A stretch of DNA of 42,774 nucleotides from Planoprotostelium fungivorum (taxonomy: Eukaryota > Evosea > Variosea > Cavosteliida > Cavosteliaceae), in NCBI GenBank assembly GCA_003024175.1, contig MDYQ01000228.1, positions 1 to 42,774 on the forward strand. Direction: 5' to 3'. The notes under the pieces are model-generated. The model was not told where the DNA came from. It searched no databases and worked only from the letters and a program-made list of their open reading frames with translations. Position 1 is the first letter of the stretch. Each line of letters starts with the position of its first letter. Of this stretch, positions 12,992-42,774 are shown piece after piece. The position numbers and the translations under genes are program-made.

Positions 12992-14499
12992 ATGCAACCA
13001 CCCGCAGGTGAAATGCATTTCATCCGTGGTCTATCATCTGATCCAAAAAGGACAACCAGGATACCCACCGCAACAAGGAGGTTATCCTCCACAAGGTCAG
13101 CCAGGTGGTTATCCACCACAACAGGGTGAGTCGTCATTTTCACCACCACCTCTTCGAATCGCGTGTCGTCCGACATCTCACGTCGAAAGGTGGTTATCCT
13201 CCACAAGGACAACCGGGCGGATATCCTCCCCAGCAAGGTTATCCTCCTCAGGGTCAACCGGGCTACCCACCCCAGCAGGGCTACCCTCCTCAAGGTCAGC
13301 CCGGTGGTTACCCTCCTCAAGGTCAGCCCGGCTATCCACCCCAGCAGGGTAAGCCCGGACAACCAGGTCAGCCCGGCTACCCTCCTCAGCAGGGTTACCC
13401 ACCACAAGGTCAGCCCGGTCAGGCCGGCGGTTACCCACCACAAGGACAGCCAGGTCAGCCCGGCGGTTATCCACCACAAGGACAGGCCGGTGGTTATCCA
13501 CCGCAAGGACAGCCGGGTCAGGCCGGTGGTTATCCACCACAAGGACAGCCAGGTCAGGCCGGCGGTTATCCACCACAAGGACAGCCAGGTCAGCCCGGTG
13601 CTTATCCACCACAAGGACAGGCCGTTGGTTACCCCCCGCAGGGTCAGCCCGGACAACCCGGTCAGCCCACCGCTCAGAAGGGTTACCCTCCCCAAGGACA
13701 ACCCGGCTACCCTCCACAAGGACAACCGGGCGGATATCCTCCCCAGCAAGGTTATCCCCCACAGGGTCAACCGGGCTACCCACCCCAGCAGGGCTACCCT
13801 CCTCAGGGTCAGCCCAGTGGTTACCCTCCCCAGCAGCCCGGTTACCCTCCCCAGGGTTACCCTCCTCAAGGTGAGAGAATTTTCCCGCCACATTTCGCTC
13901 ACCCACCTCAGCCGGCTACGCCACACAGACGACAAAGACGACGACCACCACGGGCTACCCACCCCAACCGGGCTACCCTCCTCAGGGTTACCCTCCACAA
14001 GCTTATGGAGCACCCTACGGGGCACCGGCTTACCCTGCCGCCGCCGCCGCCGTGACTTACGTCACTGTTCCACAGACATACGCCCGACAGTCTTACACTT
14101 ACGCGTCGCCCTACAGCGCTCGTGCTGCTTTCATCTGCCCCACCGGATTACCACCTCATCTGGCGGCGAAGATGGTGAGTGGCTCGTTGTAGAGCGACGG
14201 ATGACGCGTTGTAGATGCAAGCTTCCTCCATCTTCAGGATGTACGACACCAACCGCAGCGGATCGTTGTCTAAGAAGGAGTGGAAGAAGGCAATGTCCCA
14301 CATGGGGTGGGCCACATCATCACATCTCTGTTTCACTCATCGTCCATCAGATACCACATGCACAAGCACGACCGCAAGAGACTCTTCCACATGATCGATA
14401 GGGACCACTCCGGTTATATCTCTGAGAGAGGTGAGAGATACAGACCTTTATCTCTGACACCTATCAGAGTTCTGTGAGTACTGGGTATCGACCCACTAG
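12992..14499 (+). CDS. Gly-Tyr-Pro-Pro-Gln repeat protein with C-terminal EF-hands
   Basis: After a short first exon (MQPPA), about 300 residues are a low-complexity array of GYPPQ, GQPG and QAGG units (nt 13032-14000). A linker follows ([21 protein letters not shown]). The C-terminus then has two EF-hand loops: [12 protein letters not shown] (near 14245) and [12 protein letters not shown] (near 14400), both with acidic ligands at positions 1 and 12. The last exon encodes FCEYWVSTH-stop. The layout resembles penta-EF-hand proteins such as ALG-2/peflin and grancalcin, where a Gly/Pro/Tyr-rich N-terminus precedes calcium-binding hands and mediates membrane or partner binding. Only two clear hands are visible here. 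The intron at about 14174-14212 holds two CGTTGTAG half-sites. Confidence 0.85.
13032..14000 (+). repeat. GYPPQGQPG-coding minisatellite
   Basis: Codon-level repeats of GGTTAYCCWCCWCARGGWCAGCC type, about 24-36 bp each, fill most of the exon. Because both strands lack stop codons over the array, long antisense open frames appear; these are artefacts of the repeat. Unit-length variation between strains is likely. Confidence 0.85.
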
Positions 14500-15048
14500 A
14501 CAGGAGCTCTCCGTGTGAAAATAAATCGTGTTGACGACATCGGTTTCTATGGTTGACTCAGGAGCATCTTTGTAAAGGAAATCCCACAGACGCGTGGTCA
14601 CTGGCCCCGGGTTCTTACTCTGACAGGAAGCGAGCCCAAGGGAGGTGAAAAATACCGTCAGAGAGGTCCCACCTTCCAGTGAAATGCGGAGATAATTCAT
14701 ATTGAACTCCGCCGCACATTCGTAAACGTAATCATCTGTCACAAGAGGGTTGCCATGGTTGCCTCATCGCACCAAGAGCGGCAGGCGGCAAACTCTATAG
14801 GGAGCGGGGACGTGGGTGGAGCTCAGAGAAAGGGCCATCTAACTGACTCCTTCAGGTGCGGGATGAAGCCACCGAGCGTAGTTGCGGTAGAGAGTCCATC
14901 GAAGAGGGAGAATGAAAGGGAAAATCGTGTGTGGTTGTCTAGGATGGAGAATGGTTGGTCGCTGAGGTGGTGCAGAAGTCTCCGGGGGCCTTGTTCTGAA
15001 AGCGTCAGAGAGAGAGCTGTCAATCAAAGGAGAACAGAAAGCGTCCAT
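14464..15048 (-). CDS. Orphan protein, three exons
   Basis: Minus-strand splicing in frame joins MDAFCSPLIDSS...RWLHPAPEG to SLPPAAL and then to DDYVYECAAEFNMNYLRISL...GRYPVLTEL-stop, about 155 residues. Donor and acceptor sites (GTCAG...TATAG and GTGCG...GACAG) keep one frame open throughout, which is the main evidence. I do not recognise the family; no signal peptide or membrane segment is obvious. Its last 36 nt overlap the 3' end of the convergent EF-hand gene. It starts 165 bp from the divergent PP2A subunit gene, which would share its promoter. It could alternatively be untranslated sequence. Confidence 0.45.
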
Positions 15049-15212
15049 AGCTTGGGTACAAGCTTACACGCGGGGCAACTCAATATAACGCAACTTCGAC
15101 TCATCCTCCATCGACTCTCAGTAGAACGTATATTATCTTTCTCTTGTAGAATATCACGAACGCACGACTCACATCGCAACTTGCATTTCGAATCGTTCGT
15201 TAGACGTTCTCG

Positions 15213-16783: not shown

Positions 16784-17135
16784 GGCCATCATAAGAGCTC
16801 ACCTTTTGAAAAGAGTACATAAGATGTTCATACGGCAGTTTCAGACGAGATATAAATGCATCGAAACTTCGATTATATGGCTGTCACCTCCATGATGTTG
16901 TGCGGGCGGCGATGATGTGATGATGGTGAAGTGTCTTTTTTTTGAAACTCCCTCTCCAGAAATTCCAATCTCCAAGCGAAGCAGAGTGTTGGATTGGACC
17001 ATAGAGAAAGCTTGAACGAAAATGAGCTGATGAAGATGTTGCCAATAAAGTTCAAGTTGCTCTTTTTATGATATTTATCTTGTGAATACGTAAAACCTCG
17101 CGGAAGAGAACATCAGAGCACATCTCGGTTCATCA
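16784..17135. other. Intergenic spacer
   Basis: It holds the 3' flank of the PP2A subunit and the promoter of the F-box gene. No coding content or RNA gene is seen. Confidence 0.4.
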
Positions 17136-18806
17136 ATGAGCTGGATCGAATTTGAAGATGGAGACACGTCTTCTAATACCATTGCAGACTTTGGAGAGAC
17201 AATGGGTGCTGCCATAGATGTTGATCTTCGGAGAATCGACAATGGATCTGCAGGGAGGATACCCAATCACAGCATCACACAGGTTTATTCTTTTGACGAA
17301 CCTCTGGACCGCAATGAACTAAAGAAACTGACCGAAAATGGTACGTGTTTGATTGCACAATCTCTCGACCCCTCCCTTGAAGATGTGAGACACGGATGCA
17401 GAGGTTTGTAATGACAATCAGCAGCCATTCAGCCATCTCAACATTGATGTCGTCATGGAGATCTTCTCTTTGTTATCCTACACGGATCTAGCTGCAGCTG
17501 CCAGTGTATCTAGGACATTTTACAGTTACGCCAATCATCCAGTTCTTCCACAATGGAGACACCTGCGTCTCTTTCCACATCGCCGAACCATCACCGATCA
17601 GATCTTATTACAGATCGTCCGAAAGTACGTTCACCATCTTTCTCATTCACCATCCAGCTCAACATCCACCCAGGTGCACTCTCATCAAGAGTCTCAGCCT
17701 TAAATATTGCAAACGCATCAACACCGCAGCGGTGATTTCCTTCATCGATATACATCCATCTCACCATTTCCAGATCGTCGGCCGCCTCATCGATGACGAT
17801 GACTTTCGACTCAACTTGCAGCACTTGGATCTGAGTGGTAACTCTATGGAAGAAGACAAACTGGTCGAATTTACGAAGAAACTCTTGACGCAGTGTCCGA
17901 ACATGAACCTCATCGACTTCAGTTGGACGGAGTTAAAGAAGGCGGAGAACATCCAGAACTTGTTGCTACACGAGAGCAAGAGACAGAAGGCAGCGAGGGC
18001 CGTCGACTCGAATTACAGTGAGGGGACGTGGCCCGTTGTAGATTGACCTGCGTACAGAGGGGAGGGAAACACCCCTGGCTTTAAGGTTTACCTCGAATTT
18101 ACACGTGAAGTCTGGGCAGAGGATGTTATCAGAGATGAACGTCAGAATAGAGTTCATGGAGAGGCGAGATAACTCCCTCAAGGTACTTTTCCCGGAAATT
18201 TCTCCGTCGACTGATCACGTGATCACCAGGTCAAATTCAATCTGTCACCATACAGAGAAGACAACGCGGCAGACATGCTACCCCGGCTAAATTTGCATTC
18301 GGGACTGAAAGCGAAGACGGCCCTACCTCTATGGAAGGTCTCCATGTTCGTCTGCACCCGCCTCGAGCTCGGAGAATCCGTGGAGAAGGTGTGGGAACGA
18401 TGACGTCATCACGGATGACGGAGACAGACTTTCCCTGAGGACTGCATCGAGCTGTACTACAACAACACACCTCTGCCGAACATCTATCACATGTCGCTGT
18501 CTTCCATCGTTGAATCTGCAGTTCACCACGCGGGGGAGGACATCTACCTTAGCTACCGATCGATCGATCTACAACGAAGGAAGACGTACCCGCGATATTT
18601 TTGCGACATGTGTCTGACACCGGTGGAAGGTGAAATTTCAGCGAGATTTCACAACTGACATGACAGGTGATGACGTGGAGCATAGAAGGGGGTGTCTCGC
18701 TGTCTTTCATCACAGAGCACTCAGGATGAAGGGAGGTGTCATAGATTTTGCTCAAGAGATAGAGGTGTTGCCAAAGGTGAGGAGGGTGGAGGTGTGGGAG
18801 ATCTGA
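17136..18806 (+). CDS. F-box / leucine-rich-repeat protein with C-terminal ubiquitin-like and Cys/His segment
   Basis: The N-terminus is acidic. An F-box-like segment follows (HLNIDVVMEIFSLLSYTDLA, then AAASVSRTFYSYANHP), and then LRRs of the AMN1/Skp2 type (CTLIKSLSLKYCKRINTAAV; LNLQHLDLSGNS). This points to a substrate receptor of an SCF ubiquitin ligase. An apparent stop at about 18045 lies in an intron that contains CGTTGTAGATTGAC; removing it extends the frame through LKAKTALPLWKVSMFVCTRL and DCIELYYNNTPLPNIYHMSL, a pattern like the RAWUL ubiquitin-like domain, then YFCDMCLTPVE...H..GC....HH, a possible zinc site. The stop used (18804-18806) is the read-through of a donor-like GTGAGG, so the C-terminal limit is uncertain; the gene could even continue into the WD40 gene. 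Confidence 0.65.
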
Positions 18807-18913
18807 TGATGGATAGTCGGGGGAGCCCAGTATGAGTTGTGGATTGTATTGTGTCCGCAGAAAGGTGATCGTCTTTCTCATCACGATCGAGCTCGGATCA
18901 TCATCATCTCTCA

Positions 18914-20751
18914 TGCCCGATGTCACCATCAATCCATGTCATCGTGATCATCATCACCGTTGTGATCATCATCATCATGACTCTGAACAGGACGCACAAG
19001 GAACAGAGACAGAATACCTCTATGCCTCACACAACAGTGCCCTCAACTACCAGACCCTCGGAGTTCCCGAGGAAGATCGGAATTGGATCCCCTGTCATTC
19101 TACCATCCTCTCTATTTCTTTTCATCCCAGTGGTGAACGCTGCGTCATCGTATCGAGAGAGGCTGACGTCATCGTCTGCCACTTGAACGCGTCACACCAG
19201 ACGATTCATTACGTGAGGTCCATCTACAACGCTGTAGATTGACGCGTCGCAGAATTCAGGCCCACACGCTTACCTGGAGACACCCTTCTACGTCGCCTGG
19301 CTGCCGGAATCTTCCTCGAAATTTCTCGTCGTATTTGCGAACGGTACCATGTGAGTGTCCGTCTACAACGTTGTAGACTGACCCTCCCAGGTTGATTTAC
19401 GACATCCGCCTGAACACGTCCCCGGCACGATCGAAATCAAGCGACACGAAGAAGCCTGCACCCTGCGTCTCTTCTGCAAGGAGAGATAACAACCCCACAT
19501 CACTCTGGCGTCTCAGCTCGAAGAAGTTATTTGCATGCAGTCTGTCCAGACAAGGAATTCTCGCCGTGGTGTCTGAAGAGCTATTGTCGGTGTTCGATGT
19601 TGGGAGGGAATTGTGAGGTGACGATGATGATGATGATGGTGATGAATGAACAGGTTGATTCATCAGGAACCTCTTAAGAAGGTGGTGTTGTGTGTCCAGT
19701 GGTCTCACGACGGAAGATATCTCCTGGTGATGATGTGATGTCGAAGGGGAAACTCACCGGAGGCAGATGGGAGGACACGGACTCCTCATGCTGTGGTGTA
19801 AGATGTCCAAAACGGTCGTGGACAGTAGAAAGATATGTAGAGAGACATCTAACGTGAGTCGTCTCATCATCATCGCACGATGATGATGGAGGTGGAAAGT
19901 CACACCCTGCAGGTCACGTGTATCCAACAAGATCTGTATACATCGAACGACGATGAATTATCTTTCGCATGCACGTTGACAGATGGTTTCCTCTACTTCT
20001 TCACCGTCTCGAATCACAAGGTCAACCATCATCACGACACACGTCTTCACGCTCACATCATCACACGATCTTCCATCATCATCACTCCTCTTCCATCAGA
20101 CACCTTACATGATCGAATGAGGCTCATCGATCTCAGATCCATCTGGGACATCTATCAGACAAGAGTCGAACTGGTCGCGGTCCACCCTGCTCTATTGCTT
20201 TCGGTAAGACGATGGTTGCTCTCGGCTTCTACGGGGGAGAAGTCACACTGTGGTCCAGGGAGGTAAACTTTTTATTTCGTTTTGTTCTTCGTTTCACACG
20301 CGGCAGTGCGATCACATCGCATCACAAGTCCAACCATTGAGGAACTTGGCCCTGCGTGCCGTCACACAGAAGTTTGACGTCTTAGACTTTGAAAAAGTGA
20401 AAGATGGTCGGTTGGCCAACGAGATCATCCGAGAGCAAGCACCGCACCTCTTGGCACAAACGGACAGCGGGCTGTTGAGATCGAAACACAAAGAGAACAA
20501 GTGTTTTCGATGCGGCTGTTCTCTCACGAGGTTTTTACGTTCGAAGGTGATCCATTATCTGATGTGTCCATTCGACTCTCGTGTGTGTCTATATCCTCAC
20601 GTCTCCCCAGTTTCTCTGTTCTCTGTGTGACAATCTCATCTGCGGAAGCTGCACCCGAGCCACCTCTTTCGGTCACGTCTGCAATCGCTGCTCCCCTCTC
20701 ATCAACCGAGCTATTCCATTCTCCACCCCCAACTATCAGAACTACGACTGA
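18914..20751 (+). CDS. WD40-repeat protein with C-terminal FYVE-like zinc finger
   Basis: Exons encode beta-propeller blades: STILSISFHPSGERCVIVSR, FYVAWLPESSSKFLVVFANG..LIYDI, VVLCVQWSHDGRYLLMGGHG, SIAFGKTMVALGFYGGEVTL-W. The C-terminus has eight metal-ligand cysteines/histidines arranged CFRCG...FLCSLCDNLICGSC...GHVCNRC, ending NYQNYD-stop at 20751. The spacing is that of a treble-clef finger, FYVE-like but without an obvious RRHHCR basic patch, so lipid binding is not certain. Neighbouring introns at 19215-19253 and 19351-19390 each contain the TCTACAAC..TTGTAGA palindrome. The start is uncertain: 18914 is the nearest in-frame ATG before the first blade, preceded by a His-rich ATC-repeat stretch that may be an intron. 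I cannot name an orthologue. Confidence 0.65.
19222..19239. repeat. Intronic palindrome, copy A
   Basis: ATCTACAACGCTGTAGAT inside a 39-nt intron of the WD40 gene, nine bases after GTGAGGTCC; one mismatch from a perfect palindrome. Confidence 0.8.
19361..19378. repeat. Intronic palindrome, copy B
   Basis: GTCTACAACGTTGTAGAC is a perfect 18-bp palindrome inside the next intron of the WD40 gene, directly after GTGAGTGTCC. It makes up nearly half of the 40-nt intron. Confidence 0.85.
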
Positions 20752-20839
20752 CCCTCCTTTCACACACAGAATACGCATTCTGCATCCTCCATACGGTGTC
20801 CGTCCCAATTTCTGGCGGGAAAACTGCGGCCGTTTGTAA

Positions 20840-20945
20840 ATGAACCGAAATTTCGCATCGAAACGCGAGCATCGTCATCCTCTTCATTGAAATGCGAAAT
20901 TTTTCCTCCAATCTGAACGTGATTTCCACGTTATCTTAACGTGAA
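20840..20945 (+). promoter_or_regulatory. Polyubiquitin promoter with inverted repeats
   Basis: GAAATTTCGCAT (20847-20858) is matched by ATGCGAAATTTT (20892-20903), an inverted repeat. GAAATTTC also fits the nGAAnnTTCn pentamer pair of heat-shock elements. Closer to the gene, AACGTG, CACGTT and AACGTG occur at 20916, 20927 and 20938. Stress-inducible polyubiquitin genes often carry such sites; here it is inference, because GAAATTTC is also frequent in introns of this genome. Confidence 0.35.
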
Positions 20946-20964
20946 GCTTGGACCAACGACGTAA

Positions 20965-21714
<750 letters not shown>

Positions 21715-21925
21715 GTCAGTCGTCGTACTGCTCAGATTTGATATAAATCTTGATTAATTACATTTCATTTCTATCGAATAAATAGCATGAGGGTACCTCT
21801 TGACGATTACATCTACATCCTTCGTCTTACTTCTATCGGAATGCTAATTCCTCTCATCGACACAAGGAGATAGTTGAGTGGAAGTTGATGTTCGTGATGA
21901 TTACAGCCTAACGTGGTGTCTTTTA

Positions 21926-26409: not shown

Positions 26410-29400
26410 TTAGAGCTTCGACGGGGGGCGAAGGGGTACTTCTCTGTGTGTATATGTCTTCTTCCCCGTGCTGTAATCGGAGACAATCTCTCCATCACCA
26501 CTGGTCAGCTTCCACTTGGATGTCAACAATCCATCGATGCCGACGGGTCCTGCAGAGTGTCAATGTCTATGACGAGTCGATGACTCACCTCTGGCGTGGA
26601 TTCTACCAGTTGAGATTCCAACTTCAGCTCCCAGTCCAAATCGGTAGCCGTCTGCGAACCTGGTGCTCGCGTTGTGAAAGACGCAGGCCGAGTCGACCTG
26701 CACCACGTCAGATGAGGTTCGTCTACAACGGTGTAGATGGGATCATACCTCGTTGAGGAAGCGTCTGGCGGCCTCTCCATCTCTTGTGACGATGGCGTCG
26801 GTGTGGGAGCTGCTGTAGCGGTTGATGTGCTGCACGGCCTCCTCTAGATCCTCCACGATCTCTACCGTCATACCGAGGTCACCGTACTCCTCCTGTCGTA
26901 CGTCAGATGACGTCATCCGTTGTAGATCGTTCACCTTGAAGGATTTCGTGGGCTCCAGCTGCTGGAAGCTGATTTTAGCCTTGGGGCCGGCGTACAGCTT
27001 GACTTTGGCTCGGACCAGGCTGTCGAACAGCTTCTGGGCTCTACCGTCACGGACGAGCTGTCTGTGGACGAGGAGGGTCTGTTACGTCTCACTACAACGA
27101 GCCAATTTCATCTTCTCACCTCGGCAGCATTACAAGCGGACGGGTAATCCGTCTTCGAATCCACCACGATCCGGGTAAATAGTTCTTCCGGCGCATCCTC
27201 GTGTACGTAAACGTGACAGATACCCTCAGAATGTCCCATGACTGGAATTTTCGTCGACTTTTGGATGTGGGACACCAGTTCAGCAGAACCTCTGGGTATG
27301 ACCAGATCGATGTGTTCGTGATGCTCCAACAGTTCATTGATGCTCTCTCTGCCCTCTACTAATCCGATGGCGTCCCTATTCGAGTCAGCCGGAGAAACGG
27401 AAGAATCGACGGGGAGACCTGGAGACTCTGCCCTGGGTGGCGCGTTGTAGACTGTCAACGATGATACCGTGGAGCACGGCGTTAGAGAAGGTGGCCTCTT
27501 TTCCTCCCTTCAAGAGCAATCCGTTACCACTCATGATCGCCAGCGCGGAGACTTGGGGTAAGACCTGATGACGTCATCAGCCGGAAGAACGGAAGAATAG
27601 AATACCTCCGGTCTGCTCTCGAAGATGACCAGCAAGACTCCGATCGGTGCCGTGACCTGAAATTTCGTCAGTTTCCTCGCGAAATCTCGCGGAGATTTCA
27701 CCTGCTCCAAGATCAACCCCGGCGACAGCTCCGTCTTTCTCAGGAGTTTCCCAACGGGGTCCTCTCTAGCCTCCGCGATGCTCTTCAGACCATCAATGAG
27801 GGAGGCCAATTTGGGACCGGTCAATTTGAGACGGGACACCAGTTGAGAGTTCGTGTTGTTCTTCTTGGCCAGCTCGATGTCTTTCGCGTTCGCAGCCAAG
27901 ATGTCACTCTGCTGGGACTGCAGTTGAGAGGCGATATCGAGGAGGACGGCGCGGCGGGAGGCGAGATTCAATTTTTGAAGTTGGCGGGAACCCTCGCGGG
28001 CGGCCTGGGCGACGAGGCGGGAGTCCTGGCGGGAAGTTTGAAATTTGAAGGGAAGTGAGACTCACCTTTTTGGCGGGAGCGGAGGCGGGGTTCATCATGA
28101 GAGAATTTCTGGGAATGTTCTCGGTGGGGTAGCGGACAAAGAGTGTACCGACCTGATAAGGTCACGTGACTGTCTGGTTGTAGATGCCCACCTCTTCTCC
28201 CCTCACGATACGTAAGACAGAATCGTTCTTCATTCCATTGGCGATGACCACGGCATCGATGCCTGCCGATTTGACCTGCGGACGAGATTAAATCATTTCT
28301 TAAATGATTTTAATCACCTGGTCGACGTCTTCGTGTAGAGCTTTGAGGATGGCATCAATCTTGGCTTGCATTCCTCCTCGACCACCACTGGACTTGGAGC
28401 CGAAGGTGACCTGAAACGTGCGATTCAGCGTGCGAACGTCAGACTACAACGCGCCACCTGAGTCTGGGGTAGCCAGGTCGCGATGACATCCGGTAATTCG
28501 CCGTGACCCGGTAGAGATCGGTAGACACCGTCCACATCAGAGAGCAGCACCACCAAGTTCGAGTTGGAGGCTAAGCCAGTGAGGCAGGCGAGACTGTCGT
28601 TGTCCCAGAGACACAGGAAATCTTTCTTGGCAGCTGCTCGAGATGAGTCGATGATGGGCATATGAGGTGATGGAAAAGTCGATGTCTCACATGATTCTGA
28701 GAGTCCGACAAGGGGAGTGGACGCATGCGAAGTGACATCGTTCTCATTGAGAACGGGGATGACGCCTGCCTTCAGGAGCTGATCGATGGTGTTTCTCAAA
28801 TTGTTCCTCCTGTCTTTGATGCGAAAATCATCGTCGGTGACGAGCAGCTGTGAGCACCTAAGAGACGTGAGCGAGAGAGGCGGAGATGGATGTCACCTTC
28901 TTCCTTGGATGCCAAAGAGGAACTCGTATACATGCATCAGCTTGGCCTGTCCAACGGCCGCGCAGGAACGAGTGTCAGGGTTGGCGTGCCCCAGAGCGTT
29001 GAGTTCGGTCCTACCCAGACAAACAGATCCACTGTCCAATGTAAGATATGGAACATGCACTTGAGAATTTCTCTTCTTCACCTGCTGACGAGAATGACTT
29101 GTTTTCCTTGTTTCTGCAATGCACAAATCTATTCAGTGTGTTAGACGATTGTGCCAATGTCAGACGGCGAGCATGGTGACACCAGCATGATTCGAATGGA
29201 ATGGAATAGATGAGTGAATTCAGAGATCCTACCTGCTCAACCAAGTTGGCAAGACGAGTCAGTGATGGTTTTCCATCTTGAGTGACAACGTTTGTGCCGA
29301 CTTTGATGACTAAACGCCTGACACCATGGCTAAGTTCAGCACGTGTAACAGGTCTGGGACTTTGCTTCTGTTCCACAAAGATGACGGGAGGGGCCACAGT

Positions 29401-30271: not shown

Positions 30272-33200
30272 ATGCTCGACCCTGAGCCACGCCAGAAGAA
30301 GAAAGAGAAGAAATTCTTATCCCTCGATGAACTGCTGACCCACCACTCTTCATCTGAAGATGAAAAGGATAAGAAATCTGCAGCCACCATGCCACCAACG
30401 ATTCCAAAGGTAGAACCGCCTGCAGTACCCATCGAGAAACCGAGTCAAGAGGAAGAGGAGGTCGATCAGGTCGGTTACATTAGTTGTGATTGCGCCCCCA
30501 ATTCTCCACCCATCATCCATCGACGATTTCCATCCACTATTCCATTCAGATGGATCGAAACATATGATCACCATTATATCGCGATTCTATCGGCTGATAC
30601 CTCGGCAGCAATCGAATACCCCGAGGGCAAAATCACGAACGGGTCGAGTCATCAAGCCCTCCCAGGCTCGAATGGAAGCGGAAGAATCTGATCGTCTCAT
30701 CGAACAAGAACTAGAAGAGAAGCCAACCGGGGAAAAGAAGTGAGTCTCCAACTTTTCTCCTTTCCTCTCGATCCCATCTGCATCTCCCCATTCTCATTTT
30801 CATCTCCAGAAGAAAAGCTGCGACTCCCCGGAAGACACCTACGCCCCGCAAGCCAAAAGCGATTCCACAACCTGCATCGACACCGACATCCATCCTTTCA
30901 CCCAATGAAGTCACGCTACCTGAAACTTCTATCCCAGAGCCATCACTCAGTGAAGATCTCGAAGGTGCAGAAGGTAGATCGAAGAGGATGAGAAAGGTGA
31001 TGCCGATGTTCAATGCACGCTGATTCACACTCTACAGATCCCTCAGACCAAAGGTGAAGCGGCGGTAGAGGGAGAAGAAGAAGAAGACATGGAGGAAGTG
31101 GAAGAGATCACGACCGGACCAGATGGCCAACTCATCAAGAAGATGGTGAAGAGAAAGAGAGTGACCCCATTGACCTCCGTGGCTTCTCTGGACGAACTCA
31201 ATGCAAACAAGGTGAGATGAAATGGTATGGTTGGATGCTGAATGGTGCAGCGCAAGAAGATTGTGACTGTGGCCAAGTTGGGGTTGACCGATGCGTTGAA
31301 GAACGTGACGGACATGGCGGGATGGTCCGAGGCCAGGGTCAAGGTGAGAATCCGTTTCCCGCCACATTTTCCCGCTCGTTTTCCTCATCATCCCCTCGAA
31401 TATCTCCCGCCAAAAGATTGACGAGGGTAGGCCTGGAACAACCGTGCCACGGTACCGAACGCATATTATTTCCGGTTCAATGAACCAGGTGAAGAACAGA
31501 AGACGGGTCCGTGGACGGCCCAGGAGAAACTCCTCTTCAAACAACGCATGGAAGAAGTGAGACATTTTCATAAATATCTTCTCCTCACCCTCCATCAGGT
31601 CGGCGTCAACGGAGAGTGGGGACTCTTCAGTCGTCCCATACCCGGAAGGGTGAGTACTGTACGTACGCTACGTACGCTGATGACGTCATCAGGTGGGCTA
31701 CCAGTGTGCATCGCAGTTTAGGAAGATGGTACAGAAGGGGGAGATCAAACCACCCGCTGGTTACGTCCCTGTGACGAAGAAGAGGGGAGAGAAGGGAGAT
31801 GGCTCGGAAGTTCCGAGGGAGCAACGGGCCGCCCGAGGAAAGAAGGCCAAGGTAGACGTGAGTCATCCATCTACAACGCCCTTTATTCATTTTCTCAGGA
31901 TTTCGACGACCTGCCCGGGTCACCCAGTTCCCTGTTGGAGGCACCGAACGATGTGATCCGTCTACAACGTTGTAGATCGAATATTGACTTTTCAAGGGCA
32001 CGCGGCTGACTACAACTCCCACGGTGTGGTACAGTAAAGACAAGTCACAAGAGATCCAATCCCTGGAATTCTGTTACTTCTGCGGAAGTTTTGGGGGACC
32101 CGACAGCCTCATCAGCTGCGTGGACTGTGGAGAGAGCTACCATCAGTCTTGCTTCGATCCACCCATTCACGTCAAACCAGAGTACCGCTTCAACTGGAGG
32201 TGATGACGTCATCACACGTCATCCACTCAACTCTACCAGGTGTCCCAACTGCAAGTTTTGTGAGGTATGCAAGGGACCACAAGAAGAAGACAAGCTGCTC
32301 GTCTGCGAGCTGTGTGATAGCTCCATCCACACCTTCTGTCTAGATCCTCCACTGTCTGATATACCGGACAATCTGTGGCTTTGCAGGAAATGTGGAGTCT
32401 GTGCAGAGTGTGGATCTACAAAGGCTGCACCGAACATAGAAGACAACAGCGGCTGGATCACTCTACCGGAGGACCCACACAATGGTCAGGTGAGATATTT
32501 CCGAGAAATTTTGAGGAAGAGACTGAGATATTTCCAGGAAAAGAAGACGAAATTGCAGTGGTACACTTGTTTCTGTCAGAAATGTGGAGAGCAGAGGAAG
32601 AGGACCAAACTGTGTAAGACGTGTGGCTGCAGGGACAGCAACGTAGAGACAATGTTAACGTGCACGGCCTGCGGTAGACACGCGCACGAGACGTGTGCGT
32701 CACCACAGGAACTGTCCATCAACGGATTCCGGTGTTTGGAGTGCAACACGAGTGCGGTGAGTCCATCATGAAGACATGTCCGTGATGATCGTGATCATCA
32801 CACATCACACATCACACATCACACATCACACGATCGTGATGATGATGAATGATCCATGATGATGATCGCGATCGTCCATGTGATCATGCAGATGATGATG
32901 TAGCTGATCACGTTGACAGAACGAAATGGATCCGATGATGAGAGGACTGGTAGAGACGAGAGACAAGATCACGTCAGGAGGAGGATTAGAAGTAGACGAC
33001 ACGTGGATGACCGACACAAGGTAACAAGTGAGGGGAGCGTGAAATAAAGAGATTGCAACGGAAGCAACACCAAGATTTCTGAGAATTTTCCATCTACAAC
33101 GAGCTTCCGTTGATCTCATTCATCTCCCCTCTCTTCTGTCAAGGTCTCAACTTCTCCAGGTCTTGTCAATTGTGCCAGGGGAGGGACAATTCGAACACCT

Positions 33201-35747
33201 GCGGCTACCTCATGCCTTTAGACAGAGACGCATGGGTGCATGAGCGCTGTGCATCATGGAGTGATGAGGTGTCACGTGACTCCCTGGGTCTACTCCATTT
33301 CGTATCCAAGAGCATAGCGAGGGGGCAGGCGACGGTGGGGTAGGGAGGGGTGAAGCGTTCTGACTCGTTGTAGAACTGCGGAATGTGCGGAAAACCCGGG
33401 GCCACCCTCGGATGTTCCGCGGGAGATTGTGACAACAGCTACCATTTCCCTTGTGCCTTTGACCACTGCTGCTTCGTGAAGAGCGGAAAGGTGTTCTGTC
33501 CTGATCACGTGGACAGGGGAAAATTCAAGGAAAAATACGACTTCTCGCAGGTGACTGGAACGTGCGAATGCGATGGAGACTGAGCGTTGTAGATCGAGAA
33601 GAGACCGATATTTTACGTGGGGAATAAGTTCAAGAGGGTGGAGTGAGTGGAGATTTCCGTGGAGTTTCACTGAAAAGTCTTCAGCAACGAGGTGTCTTAC
33701 CGTGCCGGTCCCATTAGTTTCGACCAGGTGATCCATCTACAACGAGACCATCATCCATCTACAACGCGTATTCACGGAGAAATAGATCGGAAACGCCGTT
33801 CTCAGTCGAGAATTGGGTATGACAGCCCACGGATACACATTTCCAGTTGGATACAAAGCAATGAGGAAGTACTGGGCTCCTGATGGTTCACACAAGAGGG
33901 CCACTTATGTATGCGAGGTGACGATCTACGCGGGAGAAACATCACCGATCTATTTTTAGATCACGAAGGGTCTGAATGAGAGGGGAGGCTCGTTTCCATT
34001 GTTCAAAGTGACATGCAAGGAGGATGCATCTGTACAGCATATATCATCCTCTATCGCAGGTACCTTCTTCTCATCTTCTTCTTCATTATTTTCTCAACCT
34101 CTTCTCACCTTTTTCACAGAAGTTTCACTGAATGTCGTGGGCATGATAAATATGTACAGATCAAGACTGCCTGAGCCCAAGCCCGATATCATTCGCCTGG
34201 TACACTACAAAGTGAGGCCGGTTGTAGATGGAGGAATTCTGAGGAAATTTCGCAGCCATCTGAAGGTCCCAACTCCGTTTCACCCGTCAAGAGAATGGAG
34301 GTAGAGAGATCTACAACACCTTCACCCACCTTTGCTCCATCTACAACAAATCCGGATGTTACGCAGGGTTACGTACCGGTTACCCCACCCGGAAAGATCT
34401 CTCCCAGTGTTTCTCCTCGTCAGAGAACGACACCACCGTCACTGGCTGGTCCGATTGGGCCCTATCAGGTGAACCTCTCAACATCATCATCACGATCACG
34501 ATCACACGATGTCGATGATGATCGGCACGACCATCATCTCAACTTCTTTTTGACTTACGGGATTCAGACTCTGAGACCACTCAAATCGTTACCATTTCCT
34601 GGAAATTTCATCGGCTCGTCTCCCGACGCGATGCCTCCGCCGGTCATCTCCCCATCCAAGTCACTGAAATTTCACGAGAATTTGGAGACAGAGTTGAAGG
34701 ACTTTGTTCCACAATCTACACCTGAGACAGATTTCTTCTTCGGACTCTGGTTCTTCGGGTTGGAGGATCCAACGCTGACACGGATCATACTGAGAGACCT
34801 GCACTACAACCACCACGTCAAGAAGGAGAAGGTCGTACCATCCTCCACAGGTTCGTCTTCTCTTTCTATCTCCCCCGAAAGATTCCTTTTCATACAGAAA
34901 ATCCTCTTGATCATCTCATCTGATCTCATCATCTGTCCTCATCATCTCGACTCATCATCTCACCATCTGTCCTCATTGTATAACGCTGCCTGTAGAAATT
35001 GTAGAGGGAGAAGTGACCCACCCCTACGGCTGCATCCGCTGCAGACCCTTCGAGAAGGGAAACATGAGAAGAATGGCCACCATCAACACCACCAAGTCCG
35101 AGAAGAAGAGAATGACCCTCACTGCCATGCCAGTCAAGGCAGAGTCATTCCAATTCCTCCCCGACGCCATGCAGTACCGCATCACGAAGGCCAACCAGGG
35201 TCACCTCAGGTGAACGTGGCGGGTTGTAGATGGTGTTGACCCTCGTACAGGGTGGTGCCGTCACCCGTTGCACAGATGGGTGTCTTTACAACGAGGCCAA
35301 TTGCCGAAGGAGAGATGATTATTGAATACGTAGGGGAGATCATCAGACAGCACGTGGCTGATGAGAGGGAGAAGGTGATGAGTGATCTTCATTGTCGTGA
35401 GGCTCATGACATCAGATGTACAATTCAAAGGGTTTAGGATGTTACATGTTCAGACTGAACGACTACCACATCATAGACGCCACAGTCAAGGGAAACAAGG
35501 CGAGATTTGTCAACCACAGCTGCGACGTGAGTCTACAACGTTGTAGATGGACCGTGTCTCATCTGATCAGCCCAATGCGGCGACGAGAATCATTGACTTG
35601 GGCAATGGAGAGGAGAGGATCATGATTGTGGCCATCAGACCTATTGTGGCTGGAGAGGAAATCTTGTACGATTATCAGTTTCCATACGAAGATGTGAAGA
35701 TACCCTGTCACTGTGGATCTGTATTATGCAGAGGATTCCTCAATTAA
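30272..35747 (+). CDS. Trithorax/MLL-type histone H3K4 methyltransferase (SANT, PHD, ePHD, FYRN-FYRC, SET)
   Basis: About 25 exons in one continuous frame. In order: a basic/acidic disordered N-terminus (from MLDPEPRQKKKEKK, ATG 30272); a Myb/SANT-like domain (PWTAQEKLLFKQRMEEVGVN, then GEWGLFSRPIPGRVGYQCAS, nt about 31495-31730); PHD1 (CYFCGSFGGPDSLISCVDCG); PHD2 (CEVCKGPQEEDKLLVCELCD); PHD3 (FCQKCGEQRKRTKLCKTCGC); an extended PHD (CQLCQGRDNSNTCGYLMPLD... to VFCPDHV); FYRN (NEVSYRAGPISF) and FYRC (YTFPVGYKAMRKYWAPDGSH); and SET (MGVFTTRPIAEGEMIIEYVG, GLGCYMFRLNDYHIIDATVK, NKARFVNHSCDPN, EEILYDYQFPYED) with post-SET CHCGSVLCRGFLN-stop. The NHSC and post-SET cysteines that bind zinc are intact. 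The order matches KMT2A/B; the SANT domain does not. About 1,300 residues; nuclear, transcription-linked H3K4 methylation expected. Confidence 0.92.
31961..31976. repeat. Intronic palindrome, copy D
   Basis: TCTACAACGTTGTAGA, perfect, inside a SET-gene intron, right after the donor GTGATCCG. Confidence 0.85.
32796..32831. repeat. 7-bp tandem repeat (ATCACAC)n
   Basis: About five copies of ATCACAC in an intron of the SET gene, next to runs of GATGAT and GATCGTGATC. It is simple-sequence DNA and probably variable in length. Confidence 0.8.
35532..35547. repeat. Intronic palindrome, copy E
   Basis: TCTACAACGTTGTAGA, perfect, starting only five bases into the intron (GTGAG-TCTACAAC...) that splits NHSCD|PNAA of the SET domain. 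Confidence 0.85.
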
Positions 35748-36540
35748 AATCATTCAATTGTCTTTCCTCTTTTACTGTGACAGTTTGTGACAGGGATTCA
35801 TGCAAAGTGAGTCATACAATGTGTTGATACAACAATGATCTCCTCATTGGCAGAATTCAAAGATGGATTGGTATTCAACAGTCCTGTTGGACATCAACAA
35901 GATGGGATCTGTTATCATGTCACAATCTTGTATGCATGAGAAGATGAACATCTGTGAGGTCACCCTTACCTTTCTCTCTGATAAGAAGACCATCCTCACT
36001 GATGGAAGAGAGTGCATTGAAATGCAGATCACATTTTGCACACCCTTCTGTCTGCAAGAATTGCACTCAGGGCTATTGCAGTTCACAGCAAAGAGCTCTT
36101 GGCCAAAATTGAAGCACAGTAAATCGGTTGGATGATTGAACATAACTTGAGTAGATGAATATCTTCATCCTGAAATGATGTTCTACCATGTATCATTCTC
36201 AAGCATACTCCTGTCTTGCTAATCAGATATGAGGATATTGTAACTGTAACTGATTGTCATAACATAATATTGAGTGAATGAGGTACAGTTGTCACTGGTG
36301 TCAATTGACCGCTGGATGATCATTGTTGAAATTGAAAAAAACTACTATGATGTAAAAAAAAGGAACACAAAACCATCCACATAGCACGGATATCCACAAA
36401 GCAACGGGAAGGAAAGGACAAAATAGGAGGAAAAGATATGGCAGAATCAGGGCATCTGTTGCATCTGACTGAGTCAGGATGATGTGGGTTGGAACTGGTC
36501 TGACCCCGGACGCCCAACAGTTATGGCCAGAGGGGCATGT
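35748..36540. other. Intergenic stretch; one doubtful open frame
   Basis: AT-richer than the flanking genes. A plus-strand frame from ATG at 35863 to 36135 would encode 90 residues (MDWYSTVLLDINKMGSVIMS...). It has no recognisable domain and other frames nearby are equally unremarkable, so I do not call it a gene. No RNA gene is visible. Confidence 0.4.
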
Positions 36541-36676
36541 CAAATCTTAGGGAGGGTAGCAGGTCAGTTTTCACACTTTTGCCAGGTAGAAAGACACATG
36601 GCCTACACGCTGGTGTAATCCATTTTTTCGTCCGGACGTTCTTATCAGAGAAAAGTGAGAATTACGCTAAATAATA

Positions 36677-36709
36677 GCATATCTACGCTAAAATTTAGCG
36701 TAGATATGC
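36677..36709. repeat. 33-bp perfect palindrome in repeat copy
   Basis: Arms GCATATCTACGCTAAA and TTTAGCGTAGATATGC pair over 16 bp around a single A. This is the longest perfect hairpin of the family in the window. Confidence 0.9.
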
Positions 36710-36985
36710 ACTTTGCTCAAGTTGGGCATCGTTTTCGTGACCAGTGTGATATACCATTGGAATCAGCGCGTCTCAGAGAGTCAGGATCAGGTCAGTTCAA
36801 ATCGGTCTGATACCAAATGTATGCATGAGAAACAGGGTCACGTCTGACCTTAGGGATGGTGTCAGGTCGAGTCTGACACCATGACCATGTAGAACAACAC
36901 CTGGCCTACCCAGGAGTGGTATCTGTTTTTACCTCCGACCATTTGCATCAGAGATGAGTGCAAATTACGCTAAGGTCTAGCGTCC

Positions 36986-37006
36986 GTACGCTAAGGCTTA
37001 GCGTAC
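36986..37006. repeat. Palindrome in divergent repeat copy
   Basis: Arms GTACGCTAA and TTAGCGTAC flank GGC. Confidence 0.85.
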
Positions 37007-37110
37007 AAATGGCTTTATCTCAGCTGGGAACAACTTTTACCACTTTTCTCTTTCACTGTTGGAATCAGCGCATCTGTCCGAGTCAGAATGATGTATGCTG
37101 GTGTCTCTGA

Positions 37111-37448
37111 CCCCCACTTGCCCCAGTGGTGAAATGGCTGCTACGCACATCATCATAAGTCATCTTAGGAATGTGTTTTACAGATAGCTTGCACTGCAAG
37201 ATAGACCAGTAATCGCAGGTGCAGCTTTTCTTTGAGTCTGCATGGTTTCACATTATCATGATACATATGGCATCTGTATTTGTGTTTTCTTCCCTTTTTG
37301 ACATTCACAACAGTGAAAATGTTCACTCCACACTCTGTCAATGGCATTTGCATCAACAGACTAGAATGGATCCACACTGCCTCTTTGGTGGAGGAGTCAA
37401 GAATCATTCATCATATGTCAATACCTGCGCTGCGTTTACCATCTAGAT
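37111..37448. other. Spacer downstream of the DOCK gene
   Basis: It holds no supported gene and probably contains the 3' UTR and polyadenylation region of the minus-strand DOCK gene. Confidence 0.4.
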
Positions 37449-40400
37449 TTATTCTTCTTCTGATTCTTCTTCCAGGGGCATGTAGCGGTTGAATTCGGCC
37501 ACATGAGTCCTGAAAGACTCGCAGAGTGATCTATGGAAGCTCATGCCTTCTGGTCCGCTGATGTTGGCGTTCAACTGCAGGGCCTGGTCTATGGCCTGAA
37601 AGACATGAGATCAATGAGTCACGGGACATCTGATGATGGCAAAGGAGGATGGAGGTTCACCTCGATGAGCTGATGGAAGGTCTCAATCATGACGTGCACA
37701 TGGGCTTTGTTGTATTTGGTCATGTTGTCACCCAAGAAAACTTTACAGATTTCAAGTGGACCTCCATTCACCTCTGCAACACAATTGAATCATCTGGTTC
37801 AAGATTGTGTTGTTGATAGATGTTGATGATATTTGATGATGATGACATCATCATGGGATGACTCACGGGCCATGAGACTTCCAGACAGCTCCATTGTCAA
37901 TGTCTTCGAGTTGGGTGGTGTCATTGTCAACTCCCTCTTGATCTTGACAATCTGCCCCTGAAGTACCTCCGTGGAAGCCTCGATGGGTGTGAGCGTAAAC
38001 TGCCATCGTCAGCCTGGGACATATTCTCCATCATCTTCCCACACCTCTTCCTTCTTAACGACTAAGAGTCTCTTCTGAATGTAAGGGAAGACGCTGTCTG
38101 TCGTGATGATTGTCTTCTTCTGGTACTGCTCCGATACACTTCCCTGGGCCTTACCGCTCATCGTAAACGGTACGTTGTATTCGAAGCGTTCTGTAAAACG
38201 TTATTCTGGCGCGTTGTAGACGGACGTGATGTACGTACCAACACCAAAATTCTGCTCGAACGGAGTGATCTTCGTCTTCAGTTCGTGGGGTGGAAGCCAT
38301 ACCCTCACGCTAATGATCTGGATGTGACAGAACTCCGCGTCCGTCATCAACTTGTCTACCTTCTCCATATTGGACACAGGCTTGACGTACTGCCACGCTT
38401 CAGATGAAATCTCATCGAAATCTACGTGAGAAGTCGTTCACCTCTTCACCGAATCGGTTCTTGAATTGTCTCTCGATCTTCTCTTTGAATTCTGCGAGTC
38501 TTAGACCTCCCGGCTCTTTGTATATGTACTCTTGGCCGTTCAGCTCTTGCAATTTGGTACCGTAGAAGGCCACACGGTAGTAGAGGGGGAAGAGTCTCGT
38601 AGATTGATTCGAGGCAGAAGAGGCATCCGCATCCATCTGTTCCCATTCAGATCGTCTTCCGTGAAAAGTGGAGGAAAAATCGGAGAGAATTCGAGGAAAA
38701 TTCTTGGTAGAATCTGTGAAATTTCGGTCACCTTGCCGACGATGTAACGACAGAGGAGGTTGAGGTGGCTGTACACTCTCTCTAATTGGATGAAATTACG
38801 GTGGTTGTGGAATATAGTCTGTACACTCTGGTACACTTCGACACAGTTCTCCCACTGTTTCGCCTGAAGAATATAAATAAAATGAAATAAAGTACGCTCC
38901 TGTCCGCTTCAAAGAAATCCCTCACCTTTTCCAAAGAACGTATGGAATCCATCAACAAGTTGATGAAGCCTTGTTCCGTGAACATCTTGGACACACACAC
39001 CTCTCCCTCCTGCCATCCACGTTCAATCTCACGCCGTGTCGTCAAATCCCACCAGTGATTCCAGCACCGAACTCTGTGGCATCAACATCTCCCTATTGAT
39101 ATTCTTGTACACGTCCGTGTATTCTCTCGGGAAATTTTTCGGCTGCATGTTGGCCAAATTCATGTAACCCGACACGAGCGCCGCCATGAAGATCTTCACC
39201 AGGGCTAATTCCTCGAAATTCTCGTTCTACAACGTTTCAATTCGATGCGATCCCTCCGCTTCACCTTCTCGTGGAAATTGGCCAAGTGGCTGAGCCAGGT
39301 GAGACGTAAGTCGGGTGAGTCGGTGAATCCCTTCGAGATCTGATAGAAGAGCTCGCTGTGTCTCTCGGGGTCCCACGAGGATTCTTTCATCTTCTGCGAG
39401 TCACGCATGACACCGAACAAGCGATTGACCATCTCTTCCACTTGCTCGCTGGGAAGACGTAAGCGGAAATCTCGGGGAGATCTGGGGAGATGGCGGAAAC
39501 TGACTCACGGTAGGGTGTTGTTGAACTTTGTACCGAATTTTCCAGAGTGGCCTCGGCTGACGACTATGGATAGAGACTCTGTCAGCATGGTGAAGTCTGT
39601 TGTTTCTCCCGCCAAATTTGAAATTGAAATACCCGTCTGCAGTTTCGTTCTTGAAAAGTTCTTCATCTCCTTGTAGTTGTTCTGTACGGGTTAAGGGGTG
39701 AAATTTCGAGTTACGTACGGAGATGAGGATGTACAGGAGGGTGGTAGCCTCAATCCTGGGTGAACGTAATCTGAAATTGCAATGTCTGATGGTCTGGTAG
39801 CACAATTCACCACAGAGATTGTGTGCATAACGGAAGAGGGGTCTGTTTTCCCATCAGCTCTCCACAGATTCTCCACGAAATCTCTCTCACTTTCTGAACT
39901 CGACGATGAGATTGGTCAAGGCCATGTTGGCGGCAGTCAAGAATCGTACAGCTTGATTCGTGGTTAAAAATAGACACATGGTCTCGAAAACAGGTTTCAG
40001 CAGGGTGGAATGCTTCACCATCATGTTATCCCTATTTTTCCCTCAATTTTCTCCGGAATTTCTTCAGGATCCCACCTGAAGTCTTTGACAAAGAGGAGGA
40101 GGGTATCGAGCACCACGAACGAGACTTCTTTTCCCAAGTGTGATTCCCGCCTGGAATTGTTTGTCGGCAGGAGAGATAATGTAGACGGAGGGGACGACAC
40201 TGTCGGTCTCGCTTCCACTGTGGAACACTCAGCGTTTGTCATGTAGAGTGACGAAGAGAATGTGAGAATAAAATGAAATAAAATAATCACGAGAGGGTGA
40301 GCTGGGGGCGGAGGGAGGTGTGGTCGGTCGCGAGCTGGAATTCTCGATGTGATTGTCCGAATCCTGCCTCGTTGTAGTTTGACGTATCGGGCCGACTCAC

Positions 40401-42774
40401 CTTGCTGCGGATGACGGTAAATCTTTTCTTTTCCGGTTTTTGTGATTTTTTCTTCTTCAAGATTGTCGTGGGTGATAGATTGTCCTCCAGATTCGGAGAC
40501 ATAATGACCTCCTCCGGTTTCCTCTTGTACTGCCAATCGTCAATCTACAACAAGCCATTCGACTCGAAATCTCACCTCGAAGACGTCGACGGCGGATTGT
40601 AGACAGTCCCAAAAGTTCAATTTCCTGGTTGTAGTGTCCGCCCTCCACCAATCTTGCAGTAGCGTTCTCGGTATGTGCTTTAGAACGTACAGCCAGCACA
40701 GGAATATGTTACGTCGATCGGACAGGTTACAGCTGGTTACGGCCTTGAGGTTGTCCACCACCGTAATCAAGAAGGGAAAATACATGGCAATGATCGTCTT
40801 GATCATCTCTGGATCGTTTGCATATCTCGCATCAAAGTTGTGTTTGTAGAGGATGGTCTTCAGGGTGTCCATAGCCTGGTGACGTAAGTTGAGATTTTGA
40901 TGGGATTTCGATGTAATATCTCACGGGGGAGAGAGAAGAGAGGTCGTGGTCATTTGTGCCCTTGACAAATACAGAGTTGATCTCCTGCAGCATCAATCCA
41001 ACCAAGAAATGCTTCTGCCTGGGGGAAACTTCTCAGAAATTCCTCGTAATATTCGCGGTATTCACCAGAACGTTCTGAGAATATCTGACGGAGGTCCCAA
41101 ATCTGCTTTCATCTGTGGAGAATTGAAAGCGACGTAATGTTCGTGGTCGTTGATGATCTTCATGCAAGAGAATTTCATCTCGATCAACAGAGGCTGTCCC
41201 CCCTGTTCTAATCCTCCCACGTAAGCGTAAATCTGCACGACGTCATCCTTCTACAACGCCCTCGAAATTCCGATGGAAACTCACCAACTTGAAGATGGTG
41301 GATCGGTTGAGTATGGACATCTGGTCTTTCAAAAAGTAAGCAACTTGGTTGTTGAGCTGTCTGGCCGTTGTAGATGAGAGGATCTTGACGCTCTTTAGAC
41401 AAGCGCGGATGATATGGTGGAGGGAAGCGATGGCATCCGCAGAGAAAGTAGACGACGAGCCGGTACAACCTGGTACCAGGTTGAGAAATGTCGATGAGAT
41501 TTCGAGTTACGTACCGGACAGAGTACCCGATTTGTGTAGGAAGAGGATCATCGATTTGGTTATGATGCCGAAGAAGAACCAAGAATATTGGAAGATACCC
41601 TCCAAACTCGCAGGCTGATCCTAAATAGAGTCACAATGTGTTACTCTCTTGTGATCATTTCTCTCTCTTCTCCATCTTACAATGTAGAGTGATATTTTTT
41701 CATCTTCTTTCAATGTCGAGAAATAAAGAGATGAAGACATTTCACCTCGCGACTGCGAATGACATTGGACCACACTTGACATAATCTCTGATAGAGGGGA
41801 ACCTTCTCTCCCACTTCATTATCGAAGACAAAAGTCAGCCACGATTCCAACACGTTGTTCTTCGTCTCGTTGTAGATCCTACCGCCACCTGTCAGATGAA
41901 ATTTCTCTCGAATCTCTCACTTGTCCACGAGGGCGATGAGGTGAGAGAACACTTGCTCCGCCGCATTCACCGGAATTTCACAGAGAAGTGTCAGAGTCTA
42001 CATCGCGTGAGTTTTCACCGGATTTTCACGGTCACCTTCTTCATCACGATGGGCAGCAGTTGGATCAATTTCGTTCCGTTGGCTTTTCTCATGTGATCGA
42101 GGCTCTCGGCGACCTGTCACACGTCAATCTACAACGGTGTAGATGACTCACCTGCTGAGGTGTTCCCTCGTTGTGGTTGTGCAGACGATCGTACAGTGAG
42201 AAGAATTGGTGGATGTGTTCGTCTTGACAATGCACCGTGGAGAGTAATTTCGTGCGGACTTGAAAGACTCCCTTCTTGTTATCGATCCACTACAACCGGT
42301 CAGGAATTTTGGCGGGACGTTTGAATTTCGAACCTTGTATGCTTCGTTGTTGCGGTTCTCACGGTAACCGTTGGAGAAGTTGGTGCAGATGGGAAGCGAT
42401 CGACTCTCGTCTTTCAATACGGTACCACCGTCGATCTGTATTATGTCAGACTACAACGCGCCAGATGAAATTTCTAAGAATGTTCGTCTCACCAGGTCGG
42501 ACAGGAGGGGTAAAATGGCGTGACCCAGAACGACCTGGAATTTTCTCGTCAATTTCTGGCGGGAAATCATATGTTCACCTCGGCCTTCTCGTCCTTTTTA
42601 CTCTTTTGACATTGTACGTGGTAGAAGGTGAAGAGCAGGTGGTGCTTGGTGTTGAGAACGGTGGGTAACACGATCTTAAATTCGTTCGTAAATTTGGGAC
42701 GCTTGTTGTGGTAGCTGACGCCAGAGAAATCCTTCGTGGCCAGTCCTTCTGTCGTATTCGAAAAACCTGTGAAA
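37449..42774 (-). CDS. DOCK-family guanine-nucleotide exchange factor, zizimin-like (5' end outside window)
   Basis: The sequence enters from the right in the DHR-1 (C2-like) domain: [61 protein letters not shown] long helical middle follows. The DHR-2 catalytic region is near the C-terminus: [75 protein letters not shown] and [20 protein letters not shown], ending with an acidic tail at 37449. The LLFTFYHV.C string and the GPE(D) motif near the end fit the DOCK-C/D (zizimin) branch, which activates Cdc42 or Rac; target specificity is inference. More than twenty short introns; many carry ACAACG/CGTTGT half-sites or GCGGGAAATTT strings. The N-terminus is missing because the window ends. Confidence 0.88.
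42127..42144. repeat. Intronic palindrome, copy F
   Basis: ATCTACAACGGTGTAGAT in a DOCK intron. On the sense (minus) strand the intron reads GTGAGTC-ATCTACACCGTTGTAGAT-TGACG, the same layout as the copies in the WD40 and SET genes. Confidence 0.8.

Follow-up and report, generated by a model that had tools for sequence, protein, structure and literature searches.

Introns of unrelated genes in Planoprotostelium fungivorum share a short dyad, TCTACA-N4-TGTAGA, recognized first on contig MDYQ01000228.1 (42,774 nucleotides; this whole stretch is the window, which lies on contig C180 of an assembly totalling 36,859,091 bases over 471 contigs). The dyad is real and genome-wide, is concentrated in introns and carries what appear to be the marks of a selected protein–DNA site; its function is inferred. 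Independent introns should share no sequence, yet here ~1800 palindromic sites are nearly always intronic (as sampled), and ~1700 sites of a second, heterotypic form are mostly so. We tentatively favour, at somewhat less than even confidence, a sequence-specific dyad that a dimeric protein would recognize as duplex DNA, with selection maintaining it in introns.

Copy number, anatomy and intron enrichment of the dyad

The exact 16-mer TCTACAACGTTGTAGA occurs 681 times assembly-wide, against 0 for the same letters reversed (control). Freeing the four central bases gives 1800 copies (control, 7), with an extended consensus of GTCCATCTACAACGTTGTAGATGGAC. For the window, a first-order Markov model predicts 0.00001 exact 16-mers and, counting both strands, 0.6 half-sites; the observed numbers are 3 and 32, respectively (17 of CTACAACG, 0.32 expected; 15 of CGTTGTAG, 0.31 expected). 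The arms are seldom mutated, the spacing is fixed and the central 4 bp vary: of 90 intron sequences in which the inner arms are exact, 41 have ACGT as the centre and 49 something else. As a rule the core has the 5′ splice site on one side and the branch point on the other; some introns have it at the 3′ end, supplying the acceptor CGTTGTAG, and some palindromes there include the acceptor. The heterotypic form, TGGC-NSGT-TGTAGA (plain pattern TGGCNSGTTGTAGA, extended consensus TGGCTCGTTGTAGATGGA; hereafter the TGGC-form), retains the same 4-bp gap and has 1714 copies assembly-wide (control, 5).

All introns described here are predictions of a splice-aware gene finder, made from sequence rather than from RNA-seq and allowed a length of up to 200 nt. 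Its penalties were adjusted, and it was then retrained on the window plus a 156-kb sample (20 stretches, each up to 8 kb, picked by contig number with the motif disregarded). The output comprises 534 introns with a median of 47 nt and a commonest length of 41 nt, mainly with GTGA donors and CAG acceptors. Comparing compartments, as the original prediction had proposed, half-sites are indeed densest in introns (0.99 per kb in the 156-kb sample, with 0.27 in exons, 0.21 elsewhere and 0.014 expected). Its claim that they are nearly all intronic also holds for the window, where the retrained models place 27/32 in introns and 5/32 in exons (19 intronic, 6 exonic and 7 elsewhere in the first model version).

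The exact 16-mer is intronic in 3/3 sample copies and 3/3 window copies. Allowing a free centre between exact arms, window and sample together hold 17 dyads; predicted introns contain 13 of them, an exon 1 and DNA outside genes 3. Another 40 loci, on contigs C1 and C2, were taken from the dyad match lists irrespective of context, omitting two C1 dyads already within the 156-kb sample. Of their 52 dyads, 46 are in predicted introns (mostly ~40 nt long) and 4 in predicted exons, the other 2 being outside; introns make up 26.5% of the sequence of these loci. For one ‘exon’ case (C2:82227-82274), the opposite strand shows an intron shape. After shuffling of each palindrome’s own 16 bases, 45.2 of the 52 were still intronic, and thus the motif itself does not drive intron prediction. 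Matches to GTGA + dyad + CAG, spaced as in an intron, number 480 + 513 assembly-wide (control, 7 + 0).

The TGGC-form was sampled at 40 loci from the head of its match list (a few entries omitted), which hold 45 sites. Predicted introns contain 28 of these, 16 sense and 12 antisense, for an intron base rate of 19.8%; the 17 non-intronic sites were all scored as misses, some by eye resembling missed or opposite-strand introns and some being chance coding. Solo half-sites in introns are likewise found on both strands (20 and 14).

Motif introns, broadly defined (62/534), cluster by gene, with 106 within-gene pairs against 51 ± 9 and 0/2000 shuffles as high, in a set that includes the window, itself chosen for motifs. 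Contig C1 is independent of the window, and there 19/42 dyads have a neighbour of their own kind at 1 kb or less (6.0 expected), as do 9/27 TGGC-form sites (2.5 expected), both expectations representing random placement regardless of gene density.

A second dyad behaves alike. Of short inverted repeats with 5–6-bp arms, the most intron-enriched families are TCTACA-N4-TGTAGA and TGATGACGTCATCA, with CATC/GATG types next; inverted repeats with 6-bp arms are generally commoner in introns. TGATGACGTCATCA, with what we take to be a CREB/ATF-like core, has 501 exact copies assembly-wide (control, 0), including those at 27566, 31678 and 32201 of the window, where GATGACGTCATC is found at 18399 and 26906. 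Two window introns have the second dyad as CTGATGACGTCATCAG, covering the branch point and acceptor, and one has it as GTGATGACGTCATCAC at the 5′ end. On C1, 8/15 TGATGACGTCATCA sites have a TCTACA dyad no more than 1 kb away (1.9 expected, p 0.002); widening the limit to 2 kb leaves the count at 8, for 3.4 expected (p 0.06). CATC/GATG runs are themselves strongly intron-enriched in window and sample (TCATCATC, 73 against 7.4 expected from non-intron DNA), and motif discovery by expectation-maximization drifted to these runs and was not used.

Such repetition could also arise without function, were introns rebuilt from a few words (CATC/GATG runs, the TGTAGA dyad and TGATGACGTCATCA) by biased turnover, whether through slippage, templated insertion or conversion between introns. 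This would account for the shared intron enrichment of both dyads, half-sites, CATC/GATG runs and 6-bp-arm inverted repeats, for the co-clustering of the second dyad with the first, and for paralogous introns at one position that are unrelated in sequence (below). It leaves unexplained the near-invariant arms, the fixed spacing and the free centre, and we consider it improbable.

Recognition as duplex DNA or as an RNA stem

The original prediction offered three readings of the shared word, namely an introner-type family, a structural element and a protein-binding element. The last fits best, whereas a structural element in the form of an RNA hairpin is disfavoured and the introner family mostly fails. 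A hairpin, or an RNA–protein splicing element, would bring the 5′ splice site and the branch point of ~40-nt introns closer together, in agreement with the usual placement of the core between these two signals. The folding energies are split: mean z is −1.55 for 46 palindromic introns, 0.06 for 68 motif introns without a palindrome and −0.42 for 100 others. The TGGC-form is thus not a hairpin, and it is found in both orientations. The palindromes that are placed at the 3′ end and include the acceptor are also at odds with this reading.

Spacing is rigid. TCTACA-N0..30-TGTAGA has 2193 matches, 1800 at N4 and the other 393 over 30 spacings (control total, 310); the tolerance of loop length expected of an RNA hairpin is absent, with 1800/2193 at exactly 4 nt. 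In window plus sample, 17 dyads have exact arms, compared with 3 whose arms carry one mismatch and 13 with two. For five unrelated control dyads the one- and two-mismatch counts are 0–4 and 11–23, respectively, and hence mutated-arm dyads stand at background level. If the arms paired as RNA, changes leaving a G-U pair should be favoured over those giving A-C. Counted in intron orientation with the wild type included, left-arm G-U-keeping variants (1401 matches) and mirror right-arm A-C-giving variants (1402) reveal no preference. The first outer flank pair of 90 introns is A-U in 40, A-C in 21, G-U in 13 and G-C in 3, with Watson–Crick pairs in 43 against 48 expected if independent, which is no covariation. 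Some single introns gave the impression that compensatory pairing extends the stem outward, which is unsupported across the 90. Taken with a loop fixed at 4, these data make an RNA element quite unlikely.

Strand-symmetric use, fixed spacing and conserved arms, the marks of a DNA dyad for a dimeric protein, are all present. Together with the wobble and flank results and a second form that is non-hairpin and used in two orientations, they argue for recognition as duplex DNA by a dimer rather than as an RNA stem. In the mechanism we propose, a dimeric protein would read TCTACA-N4-TGTAGA in duplex DNA, and heterotypically TGGC-NSGT-TGTAGA, with the same gap and in either orientation. Introns would suit the dyad because a site there leaves the protein unaltered. 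Its most likely role would be that of a gene-body cis-element linked to how very short introns are transcribed or spliced; the bound dimer might mark or slow transcription across ~40-nt introns, or the site might serve a gene set as an intragenic regulatory element.

Intron history and the weighing of the readings

Were the sites instead introner relics, a short inverted-repeat mobile element would have made the introns, with splice signals at its ends and insertion either way; one element could splice in both directions because the 5′ splice site GTGAG resembles GTCAG, the complement of the branch point CTGAC. Consistent with this are the ~1800 near-identical and mostly intronic cores, the 1714 copies of the second form, their two orientations and the clustering of sites. 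The TGGC-form core stands directly after GTGAG in 5/14 short sense introns. In a kinase gene (L036), a palindromic intron occupies a position at which 6/6 fetched paralogs (of 30 places listed) have none; the next motif intron of this gene is in phase in 1/6 paralogs and within 1 nt in 2 more (by eye).

Against such an origin, target-site duplications, which border the introns of many though not all introner families and which the original prediction had proposed to seek at the edges of motif introns, show no excess: a run of 4 or more matching bases spans the junctions of 21/114 motif introns, with 21.6 expected from shuffles. Nor do motif introns have added length, their median being 42 nt versus 43 nt for others among introns up to 70 nt (the limit used for the duplication count too) and 44 versus 47.5 nt without that limit. 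Similarity does not run from end to end but stops at the core, which is all that motif introns have in common, and lies at a variable distance from both splice sites. In 90 palindromic introns, 5–18 nt separate the 5′ splice site from CTACA and 8–30 nt separate TGTAG from the intron end, ranges bounded by the search pattern; distances are similarly variable for the TGGC-form, whose search pattern has no range bound. Near-invariant arms around a variable centre are also unlike neutral copy decay.

The age of one intron position provides a further counterpoint. In a membrane-protein family whose tandem copies on contig C5 carry the motif in four introns, a GT-AG intron is found at the motif-intron site in 20/20 fetched paralogous loci (protein matches of 87% down to 26% identity). 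Because these paralogs were selected largely for matches breaking at the intron site, 20/20 speaks for the age of the position and not for how frequently it is retained. Both TTGTAG and CTACAA are missing from 19 of the 20 introns; the remaining one has a bare half-site for its acceptor. With the position old and the motif rare among paralogs, an intron of long standing has therefore either gained the motif or lost it. Considering all of this, the data for the most part do not resemble an introner family gained recently, and we regard relics of such an element as unlikely, although single copies such as the palindromic L036 intron may have this origin.

Other comparisons concern intron turnover and splice signals. 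In L003 (C5:40001-48000), a tandem multi-copy membrane-protein gene, some same-position introns are unrelated between copies 78–90% identical in DNA, indicative of fast intron turnover. The duplicates C12/C13 and C13/C13 are 100% identical and hence uninformative, and a paralog search with an ADCK-like gene matched its own exons only. Weak splice sites as the motif’s reason are unsupported, given G at exon position −1 in 90/114 motif and 295/409 other introns, and donors that are alike. Acceptors differ only by more T at −3 (29/114 motif, 61/409 other introns), as expected where CGTTGTAG serves as the acceptor. U12-type 5′ splice sites read GTATCC or ATATCC; the commonest donors of the 114 motif introns are of another kind (GTGAG 53, GTGAT 12, GTGAA 11, GTGAC 7 and GTAAA 4).

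Several observations weigh against a selected dimer site in duplex DNA, the weakest link being the scarcity of sites in intergenic DNA, where regulatory sites usually reside (3/17 dyads outside genes); this scarcity would indicate a job tied to transcribed, spliced DNA. Half-sites exceed chance in exons and intergenic DNA too, some of those outside predicted introns probably representing missed introns or coding sequence. The TGGC-form is less confined to introns (28/45) and on C1 is not significantly near the palindrome (6/27 within 1 kb, 3.3 expected, p 0.16). Palindromic introns do fold better than shuffles (z −1.55), as any palindrome must, and the wobble comparison covers one arm only for each kind of change, with few mutants (2 G-U and 4 A-C among the first 100 matches listed of each). 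The like-behaving CREB-like dyad could point away from a specific factor and towards some general process acting on intron sequence. Lastly, the only recent duplicate with a dyad, a copy of the SET-gene end on contig C139 (L061, C139:1-575, versus window 35438-36012; 93% identity), keeps the intron while an arm base and the centre are mutated. By eye, the differences between the two copies are largely C-to-T/G-to-A, many at CpG, a pattern suggestive of cytosine methylation decay.

A broader form of the dimer proposal would have DNA-level marking of introns, in which the dimer and a TGGC-half-site partner act on thousands of selected dyads, mainly in very short introns, with the CREB-like dyad doing the same nearby. 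We think this possible, if doubtful. Were it true, intron recognition or gene-set transcription would be partly specified by duplex DNA inside introns.

Window sites and comparison with known systems

The six palindromes of the original prediction are all present, no more than 1 base from where it placed them; those at 19362, 31961 and 35532 are exact, and those at 19223, 26722 and 42128 have one mismatch each, in the centre. Pfam backs its DOCK (DHR-2), PHD/SET and P5CS (AA_kinase + Aldedh) assignments, but the ‘WD40’ gene fragment has no Pfam match. The last has a 40-nt intron at 19213..19252 (+) with the dyad TCTACA-ACGC-TGTAGA (19223-19238). The exact palindrome at 19362-19377 belongs to a 40-nt intron, 19351..19390 (+), and is immediately followed by a branch-point-like CTGAC. 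Two 44-nt PHD/SET introns, 31953..31996 (+) and 35527..35570 (+), carry exact palindromes at 31961-31976 and 35532-35547, the latter intron being that with a mutated palindrome in the C139 duplicate. TCTACA-CCGT-TGTAGA is shared by a 51-nt P5CS intron (26698..26748, −; dyad 26722-26737) and a 38-nt DOCK intron (42114..42151, −; dyad 42128-42143).

Half-site coordinates proved correct within 5 bases, except that the site at 34220 is GTTGTAG after G, not C; the extended intron start (GTGAGTCCATCTACAACG), the post-palindrome sequence (TTGTAGAYTGAC) and the use of CGTTGTAG as acceptor were all observed as described. That acceptor ends introns of 44 nt at 10366..10409 (+), 42 nt in the SET gene (33551..33592, +) and 38 nt in the DOCK gene (39227..39264, −). 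It also appears as the second half-site of a 40-nt intron at 14175..14214 (+), alongside the TGGC-form GTGAGTGGCTCGTTGTAGA. The 40-nt intron at 18018..18057 (+) contains TGGCCCGTTGTAGATTGAC, its end moving to 18132 in the retrained model. P5CS introns on the minus strand comprise one of 42 nt (26893..26934) combining an antisense half-site with a GATGACGTCATC dyad, one of 41 nt (27079..27119) with TGGCTCGTTGTAG and one of 47 nt (28411..28457) with TGGCGCGTTGTAGTCTGAC; the last word recurs in a 57-nt DOCK intron (42436..42492, −). A 54-nt DOCK intron (38191..38244, −) has the antisense TGGC-form CGTCTACAACGCGCCA. The remaining SET-gene introns, all on the plus strand, are of 41 nt with the antisense half-site CCATCTACAACG (31858..31898), 58 nt with two antisense half-sites (33728..33785), 44 nt with a GGTTGTAGATGGA half-site (34212..34255) and 41 nt with TGGCGGGTTGTAGATGG (35210..35250; end at 35346 in the first model).

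A DNA search with the right part of the window found the duplicates on C139 and C58 as well as a repeat family, and no other paralogs of motif introns. Most of its 130 matches come from a ~740-bp unit (36439-37173) with many more copies on dozens of contigs, some in tandem. Window 37388-42774 is 100% identical to C58:152358-157745 (minus strand), which may be either a redundant contig end or a very recent duplication. At 12992-14499, a gene model encodes long Gly-Tyr-Pro-Pro-Gln repeats and then EF-hand-like sequence (by eye); several reading frames stay open across the repeats.

Intronic transcription-factor dyads are typified by the CREB/ATF site TGACGTCA, which is strand-symmetric, of fixed spacing and clustered. 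The TCTACA dyad is alike in all three respects and differs in being rare in intergenic DNA. We know of no factor that matches it, and searches of the open-access literature turned up no description of the dyad, or of gene-body sites so tied to ultrashort introns. The signature looks like that of duplex-DNA recognition, and the tests run gave no sign of transposition; if a factor binds, these would be gene-body DNA sites tied to the splicing or transcription of ultrashort introns.

Introners, as portrayed in the main text of Gozashti et al. 2022 (PMC9860276), are similar introns in unrelated genes of one genome, gene-enriched and with inverted repeats in some families, all features with a parallel here. 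The present family differs in sharing a core of 14–26 bp rather than the whole intron, with no duplication signal, ordinary length and a core within an old intron. The terms ‘amoebozoa’, ‘protostelium’ and ‘palindrom’ are all absent from that main text. The screen it describes required a BLAST E of 1e-5 and similarity beginning near both intron ends, and would probably miss a core-only family because of these whole-intron criteria. If the dyads were relics of an intron-building element, they would therefore constitute a family overlooked by whole-intron similarity screens.

The internally symmetrical stwintrons and sister introns of Hypoxylaceae (PMC8469720) have likewise proliferated with inverted symmetry and without flanking short duplications. 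Their terminal inverted repeats are 45–55 nt over whole (stw)introns, whereas here an internal 16–26-bp dyad with a free centre is found at ~1800 places, mostly in ordinary short introns. Amoebophrya introner elements, according to passages of PMC7789003, also have 8–20-nt inverted repeats able to form hairpins; these have mostly non-canonical splice sites, border direct repeats and varied repeats, in contrast to the canonical GT-AG introns and one common dyad of P. fungivorum.

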